A stretch of 64,000 nucleotides of DNA from Candidatus Halobonum tyrrellensis G22 (GTDB taxonomy: Archaea > Halobacteriota > Halobacteria > Halobacteriales > Haloferacaceae): NCBI RefSeq assembly GCF_000495475.1, contig NZ_ASGZ01000005.1:62001-126000 (forward strand). The letters are read 5' to 3'. Numbering within the stretch: position 1 is the stretch's first letter; every line of letters starts with the position of its first letter. Below are positions 24,883 to 25,453 of this stretch, piece by piece. Below the pieces are notes generated by a model. That model saw only the letters and a program-made list of their open reading frames with translations, did not search any database and was not told the origin of the DNA. Made by a program: the position numbers and the translations under genes.

Positions 24883-25453
24883 GGCTACGCCGTCGAGGAC
24901 TGTGGCGTGACCGGCATCGCCGTCGTCAACGAAGGCCCCGACGAAGAGCCGGTCGTCGTCCCCATCGCGCGCTTCTCGCTCGGCGAGGACGTCGAGACGC
25001 CCGACACCGACCTTGTGTGGGATCTAGTCGGCGAGTGCAATACAGGGACTGTTCGACGACGTGTTCGTGCGTCACTACGACATCCAATTCACGTTCGACG
25101 TTCGAAAATCGCAGAGTGATTTTCGAGCCAGTCAGAAACCTCTGATTTCTGACGGCGGCGACGAACTGTTCGAGGCCGAGGAGTACCGGCGCGTCCTGCT
25201 GACTGACGAGTTGGTCGACCGTTTCGCGACCGACGCTGGGTTCTCGCTCGCGGACCGCCGCGAGGCGGTCTTCGAGGCGGACGACATCGACGACGCGAGC
25301 GCGCCGGTCGCGTGGGGAGAGTGCCAAGGCTACAGTCGGACCGACGACGCGGCGATGGTGATGGGCGGGACGGCGGCCGCCGCCACAGCGAGTGTGGGCG
25401 CAGCCAGTTGTGCGGGTGCCGGGGCGGCGGCCGGAGGTGGCGGCGCCTGTTAG
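24874..25453 (+). pseudogene. Frame-broken hypothetical gene with Ala/Gly/Cys-rich tail
   Basis: An acidic protein-like frame runs from the ATG at 24874 (MFAGYAVEDCGVTGIAVVNE...) to about 25040, then shifts to the frame beginning LFDDVFVRHYDIQFTFDV and continuing to a stop at 25453. The final 45 residues are unusual: VMGGTAAAATASVGAASC followed by an Ala/Gly run with a terminal Cys. Two tandem hairpins (25102-25153) interrupt the middle. I do not recognise the family. The 5' end is fused to the integrase fragment. It may be a decayed cargo gene of the element. Confidence 0.45.
25102..25153. repeat. Two tandem hairpin palindromes, each with a 7-base loop
   Basis: The first (25102-25126) is TCGAAAATC-N7-GATTTTCGA with 9-bp perfect arms. 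The second (25131-25153) is GTCAGAAA-N7-TTTCTGAC with 8-bp perfect arms. They are four bases apart and lie inside a decayed coding frame. Tandem hairpins occur at ends of IS200/IS605-type elements and in REP-like repeats; no transposase is present, so the identity is open. Confidence 0.55.

Follow-up and report, generated by a model that had tools for sequence, protein, structure and literature searches.

The window, a stretch of 64,000 nucleotides from Candidatus Halobonum tyrrellensis G22, contains the remnant of a gene for an uncharacterised haloarchaeal protein, and a short element composed of two hairpins lies inside this remnant. The features at the locus are as follows (positions are those of the window):

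24884..25453, + strand: remnant of the host gene, uncharacterised haloarchaeal protein (similarity to relatives, open frame; 5′ end lost)
25097..25100, + strand: target tetranucleotide GACG, left flank of the element (also in the empty genes, which read TTCGACG up to the site and G... after it; 22 of 23 rows empty; paralogue L005 empty)
25101..25157, + strand: inserted double-hairpin element, 57 bp or 19 codons (its 57 columns in the alignment are occupied in the window and L007 alone)
25102..25126, + strand: hairpin 1, H1 (inverted repeat, DNA and RNA folds, covariation across copies)
25127..25130, + strand: linker GCCA between the hairpins (near-invariant in aligned copies)
25131..25153, + strand: hairpin 2, H2 (inverted repeat, DNA and RNA folds, covariation across copies)
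25154..25157, + strand: 3′ terminus GGCG (one-base variant of the family GACG, with which 91 of 106 copies end; L007 has GACG)

As the original prediction described, two inverted repeats lie four bases apart at this position. The first has 9-nt arms (25102–25110 and 25118–25126) and the second 8-nt arms (25131–25138 and 25146–25153), in both cases 100% complementary and with 7 nt between them. According to the alignment with relatives, the proposed 52-bp unit has to be enlarged to 57 bp (25101–25157), and what had been taken for just two palindromes is a fixed architecture, CG^-H1-GCCA-H2-GACG. When folded as RNA, hairpin 1 has a stem that reaches further inwards and leaves a 3-nt loop. Folding of the double-hairpin stretch gave −17.9 kcal/mol (z −5.0) as DNA and −26.2 (z −4.5) as RNA, and none of 200 dinucleotide shuffles was as good in either case. 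A generic pattern search for two stacked hairpins around GCC[AC] returned one match in 198,762 triplet-shuffled bases. The element translates in the host frame as (V)RKSQSDFRASQKPLISDG, and this copy scores 76.2 bits with covariance model R1, to whose training set it belongs.

The host gene and its empty relatives

The host gene is decayed, as had been suspected: similarity to relatives starts only near 24884, and 8 nt are missing after 25035. Its frame is open from 25061 to 25453. The hairpins do lie inside a decayed gene, but the element cannot be blamed for breaking it, the breaks being located 5′ of the element; the gene has decayed by 5′ loss and deletion, and the window copy has outlived its gene. 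No Pfam family matched the pieces of the host gene, and Rfam returned for the window stretch only a sub-threshold match (17.5 bits versus a gathering threshold of 96) that falls outside the element.

Relatives of the host gene are present in 30 of 197 genomes, the window's own genome counted. The alignment comprised 23 relatives plus the window gene; L001, L003 and L006 (self), L002 (chance) and L004 (duplicate of L005) were left out, as were the partial matches L029, L031, L032, L033 and L035, and L030 and L034, for which there was no blastn match. Comparison at the DNA level bears out the proposal that the hairpins were inserted, with 22 of the 23 aligned relatives empty at exactly the 57 columns. 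Among these is a paralogue in the same genome (L005), which reads TTCGACG followed directly by GTGACGAG across the insertion site. This paralogue is truncated upstream, with a transposase-like frame before it and an in-frame TAG (L005 474–1028 and 820–1126).

The one filled row is L007 (Salinigranum salinum, matched to YJ-50-S2), an intact frame of 257 residues with a 57-bp insertion at the same site, whose element was matched to that of the window by an independent DNA search (E 7.8e-11). The observation that the prediction had named as speaking against it, namely the same hairpins in an intact orthologue, was thus made in a single row. We read the L007 hairpins as a shared insertion and not as original coding sequence, because the other 22 rows are empty.

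Copies in other genomes and their insertion sites

Double-hairpin units of the same kind are dispersed in other genomes, in agreement with the suggestion of a small non-autonomous palindromic element. Their common architecture is CG, hairpin 1, GCCA (or cAGCCC), hairpin 2 and GACG. The search for the unit in the window's own genome had a divided outcome. By plain DNA comparison no second copy was found in the rest of the genome, where the only match was 26 bp long and lay outside the hairpins, whereas a covariance model built from 17 copies detected two strong, diverged copies and one weak copy besides that of the window, making three strong and one weak in all. Two loci of this genome, L067 and L068 (contigs C28 and C60), represent a related subtype with the linker CGCT and the ending AACGG, not the GCCA type. 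A DNA search with a 62-bp stretch (E ≤ 1) recovered the copy in L007 along with others from different genera; many of its matches were weak chance hits, and no counts were based on it.

With the covariance model, at least 153 of 197 related genomes carry the element at E ≤ 1e-6, the best 26 candidates per genome having been scored. When the best 150 candidates were scored in seven genomes (E ≤ 1e-5), copy numbers were 60, 51, 42, 35, 32, 26 and 21, the highest being those of G076 (60), G128 (51) and G029 (42). Among 294 genomes drawn from the phylum, 50 had matches, and all 50 belong to the same order or closer; the listing omitted 224 genomes that had no match. A pattern scan of public genomes yielded 20 stretches, 19 archaeal and one in a Prevotellaceae MAG, the last of which was taken as a chance match. 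The double-hairpin family is apparently restricted to haloarchaea. H1 is found directly upstream of 106 of 113 H2-type ends, indicating that the hairpins travel together; the remaining seven have no recognised H1, and some of them show a degenerate one. Rfam returned only tRNA matches for 20 loci. One tRNA match lies near three double hairpins in genome G128 (L164, 1120–1319); it spans 200 nt and therefore probably contains a long intron.

The window copy is one member of a dispersed, probably mobile haloarchaeal family of about 57 bases, scattered over most of the haloarchaea examined, that resides in genes usually without breaking the frame. Exact empty sites were identified at further loci. 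In the kae1-bud32 DNA, genome G059 is filled with 57 bp, and the insertion is missing from all 29 others, two of which belong to the same genus as G059. Two tnpB genes with about 90% identity differ at two sites in opposite ways, L048 being filled after CCCCGACG and L166 after TTCGGCG and each lacking the element where the other has it; L165 is empty at both.

At its sites the element sits 3′ of NRCG and ends in GACG, a terminus present in 91 of 106 copies. CG is the last dinucleotide of the left flank in 104 and of the right end in 98 of 106 copies, so a 2-bp CG duplication at insertion is possible. A 4-bp target duplication was rejected for most copies, because a left GGCG (39 copies) is paired with a right GACG in 32 and with GGCG in only one. 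The tetramers at the two ends are identical in no more than 38 of 106 copies, 36 of which have GACG on both sides.

Copies recur in IS605-type elements (L048, L052, L053, L098, L122, L144, L165 and L166), where they lie next to tnpB or within its 3′ part, in the left end ahead of tnpA, or inside tnpB. It may be conjectured that such copies affect the guide RNA, which overlaps the end of tnpB.

In genome G099, intergenic copies sit in a larger repeated element of about 150–235 bp, AAAGGGGCAG...GGGGCTTTGG (L105, L117, L123, L129, L131, L132, L135, L136, L137, L140, L142 and L143). Its outer stem differs between copies with the pairing largely kept, and Rfam gave no match for three of these loci. 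A second kind of double hairpin, with a linker of about TCATC, occurs in some copies of the larger element and is cleanly absent from others, as judged by comparing L105, L129, L131, L137 and L140 with L117, L123, L135 and L137 (columns 140–200 of alignment A5). This pattern in the aligned sequences suggests that the second kind might be a second mobile subtype.

Residence in reading frames and maintenance of pairing

Copies were classified as intragenic when both flanks showed period-3 signal, without demanding an open frame; one of 106 copies was dropped because of a short flank. By this test coding DNA lies on both sides of 28 of 105 copies. Of these, 26 are in frame, their lengths being multiples of 3 (57 bp in 21), and two (L095 and L097) break the frame. 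Under stricter criteria, an earlier test counted 33 copies as intragenic, of which 31 have a length divisible by 3. An intron or another sequence excised from RNA was considered and thought unlikely, the intragenic lengths being divisible by 3 in 26 of 28 cases.

Lengths divisible by 3 are found in 26 of 28 intragenic versus 38 of 77 other copies (Fisher p 2.9e-5), and 26 of the 28 score as sense in phase 1, with the codon split after its first base, which exceeds the 38% expected from 814 of 2141 GRCG sites in the host frames (p 1.8e-9, copies treated as independent); these p-values overstate significance because the copies are related. The sense phase is open in 34 of 35 elements tested and one antisense phase in all 35, and therefore openness alone does not explain the bias in sense and phase. 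The GC test placed L092 and L174 on the antisense strand; a Pfam HHH_5 match in the sense frame shows L092 to be sense, and for L174 there was no Pfam match to fix its strand.

The encoded peptide has about 19 residues and is hydrophilic, typically ESRSDSLANQNASRSGD. Its hosts are unrelated proteins, including Kae1-Bud32, TruA, TruD, TrpC, Nif3 and archaeal phosphoglucosamine mutase, as well as an aldo-keto reductase, an aldehyde dehydrogenase, Usp, an M32 carboxypeptidase, QPRTase and NUDIX proteins. When Kae1 was aligned with a PDB chain, a clean gap of 19 residues appeared at the insert, and in the aldo-keto reductase 19 residues remained unaligned between adjacent residues of the chain; the gap in Nif3 was less clean. 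In two pairs the unit occupies apparently the same place, namely the HHH_5 proteins L088 and L092 from two genomes and the two universal stress proteins L147 and L152 of G076, either as a shared insertion or at a repeatedly hit site.

Base pairing is maintained across the family. In 96 distinct copies, 95.7% of cells are paired versus 78.1 in shuffles, and 369 cells are changed on both sides versus 96.8 in shuffles, a number that none of 500 shuffles reached; the copy alignments were fitted to the model, which biases them towards the structure. Controls with slid partners paired in at most 40.1%, and a looser, larger set (137 distinct rows) gave the same picture. In the model the stems comprise 11 and 9 pairs, and many copies have additional inner pairs in H2. 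The covariation is located in hairpins 1 and 2; the outer CG/CG pairs are uninformative in this respect because they are nearly invariant. An SDR gene pair (L046 and L078) shares a common insertion site with 78% flank identity and 81% element identity, and by eye the differences between the two elements lie in loops or in pairs altered on both sides. In the L007 copy, by contrast, mismatched stem positions were seen by eye, so pairing can decay after insertion.

Proposed mode of movement and relation to known elements

We regard it as likely that these loci belong to a family of non-autonomous mobile elements of haloarchaea, very short in length and built as 5′-NRCG^[H1]GCCA[H2]GACG-3′, with two different hairpins and a fixed 4-nt linker. 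Precise insertion, dispersal, maintained pairing and in-frame residence in unrelated genes are shown by the sequence comparisons. In the route that we favour, a putative trans-acting enzyme would recognise both hairpins on single-stranded DNA and join the unit immediately 3′ of an NRCG tetranucleotide, and the second cleavage would take place at the 3′ GACG that the element itself carries. A hairpin-guided single-strand route of this kind is also assumed for IS200/IS605 and REP elements. Insertion after GAC-G or GGC-G would bring the 57-bp unit into a stop-free codon phase, so that the host protein would gain a hydrophilic peptide of about 19 residues, and insertions of another phase or length would tend to break genes and be lost. 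Genes for Y1 transposases (PF01797) are missing from 76 genomes, 55 of which still carry copies, and where such genes are present copies occur in 98 of 121 genomes. Copy number and Y1 number show a weak positive correlation (rho 0.21, p 0.0025; counts from the best 26 candidates per genome). A genome can carry copies without any Y1 transposase gene.

The intact gene of Salinigranum salinum, which holds the hairpins in frame, would also suit a history in which they were an original coding part of the host gene and were deleted in most relatives. Such a history is extremely improbable: the identical 57 columns are unfilled in 22 of 23 rows, all 29 other genomes lack the unit in kae1-bud32, and the dispersal of the unit in many unrelated genes and intergenic places refutes it. 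The unit might instead be a terminal-only remnant of IS605 (PATE), with H1 and H2 as the hairpins of the left and right ends, brought together when the core was lost. An insertion site following a short tetranucleotide, with no long duplication, suits IS605, copies are slightly more numerous where Y1 genes exist, and terminal-only PATEs of 52 bp are described from Haloquadratum in the accessible text of one paper (PMC3119063). However, the 52-bp forms described there keep one palindrome and not two different ones (PMC3119063, same text), H1 lies directly upstream of 106 of 113 H2 ends, and no H1...H2 pair was found flanking a gene in the fetched loci. The IS605 elements L165 and L166, which have tnpA, hold the unit as an insertion in the left end or in tnpB and not as their own ends. 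We consider this origin unlikely.

A conventional double-strand transposase that makes a 2-bp CG duplication, acting on a miniature element without long inverted repeats, would account for CG at the end of the left flank in 104 of 106 copies and at the right end in 98. Its probability appears slightly lower still, as aligned copies show no inverted-repeat relationship between their two ends, what is maintained is the pair of internal hairpins, and no partner transposon was found. Strong covariation could also reflect a structured RNA domain that is not mobile and is under selection for a host function such as mRNA stability or regulation, and the intergenic copies of G099, embedded in a larger repeat whose outer stem varies with pairing kept, point the same way. 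This explanation, to which we give little credence, has to be set against presence and absence of the unit at unrelated sites, within a genus and between paralogues. In addition, no Rfam family matches the unit in the window stretch or in 20 loci, the sets of host genes look random, and few sites (those of the window gene, the SDR pair L046/L078 and L088/L092) keep their position within the same gene.

Coding mobile palindromes are best known from Rickettsia. Building on the reading as a mobile double-hairpin family, we lean somewhat towards the view that haloarchaea own a class of mobile element that is translated, consisting of two different hairpins in fixed combination and having no inverted termini, which would be moved by a putative hairpin-reading enzyme and would repeatedly have entered housekeeping proteins, Kae1-Bud32 among them, in frame and in a single codon phase. 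If true, this would be an archaeal case, separate from Rickettsia, of a selfish element that adds a peptide to proteins, and one in which the structure of the element is renewed by compensatory change even within coding sequence. For CGTC-type repeats no mobilising enzyme is known according to the consulted text of one paper (PMC3733652), and a high-copy family with exact empty sites and a defined target would offer a free-living group in which to seek the mobilising enzyme. The family also opens the question of how essential proteins accommodate a preformed stretch of about 19 extra residues. In annotation, it would account for puzzling hydrophilic insertions in haloarchaeal proteins.

Two adjacent hairpins also form the mobile unit in the double-hairpin elements of fungal mitochondria, which are likened to the haloarchaeal unit by description only; these elements are organellar and are not known for in-frame residence in protein genes. 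A paper on double-hairpin elements reportedly concerns Allomyces, palindromic elements of Methanocaldococcus are said to be the subject of a paper by Suyama, and the first paper on RPEs in Rickettsia is reportedly that of Ogata. GTAG REP/REPIN elements with RAYT do not match the unit, the conserved terminus of which is GACG and copies of which occur in 55 of 76 genomes without a Y1_Tnp match. MITEs of DDE transposons do not match either, the ends of the unit being TTC... and ...GACG and not inverted repeats with a target duplication.

A literature search, with most subscription papers outside its reach, found no report of such a haloarchaeal element. RepRanger surveys archaea for REPs, and "halo" is absent from the part of its text that was available (PMC12306157). 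In being haloarchaeal, transposase-free and palindromic, the unit resembles the 52-bp terminal-only PATEs of Haloquadratum walsbyi, which are described as making no target duplication (PMC3119063); for the unit, a 2-bp CG duplication is possible. PATEs keep the near-terminal palindromes of IS605 (PMC3119063, in part), whereas in the fetched loci no IS605 ends made up of the double-hairpin unit were found. The small mobile repeats of the same species described there, 80–110 bp long with inverted terminal repeats (PMC3119063, in part), are likewise unlike the unit.

Likenesses are also seen with two bacterial groups. RPEs are short palindromic units that reside in frame in many unrelated protein genes and are tolerated as an extra peptide, as stated in the accessible portions of two papers (PMC10969869; Di Nocera 2013, PMC3733652), and in-frame residence in varied hosts is likewise found for 26 of 28 intragenic haloarchaeal copies. 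RPEs measure about 150 bp in the text available (PMC10969869), whereas the haloarchaeal unit is 57 bp in 21 of 28 intragenic copies, a difference in length; the haloarchaeal unit further differs in consisting of two separate hairpins and a fixed linker. The CGTC-tagged REP super-family includes RPE-4, RPE-6 and Neisseria dRS3, and the paper lists bacterial phyla, with "halo" absent from its accessible text (PMC3733652). Two features are partly reminiscent of these REPs: the other strand of the haloarchaeal unit starts with CGTC directly before a hairpin, and the H1 side ends in a CCA-like tail, GCCA, although this tail is shared between two hairpins; at its other end the H1 side has only CG or CGT, and that CG is host flank. 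Both groups are dispersed and often intragenic, with no dedicated transposase known, as far as the available text goes (PMC3733652). Stems of 8–9 bp and loops of 4–5 nt given in that text (PMC3733652) differ from the haloarchaeal stems of 10–11 bp (9–12 bp across the hairpin listing) and loops of mostly 3 nt, and the haloarchaeal unit has two different hairpins arranged tail to tail around one shared 4-nt linker. We assign the element to none of RPEs, CGTC-tagged REPs and PATEs, because its stem and loop sizes depart from those of the REPs, it is shorter than RPEs and it is not shown to be a PATE. By analogy, it appears to work like RPEs and CGTC-tagged REPs while lacking defining features of each.
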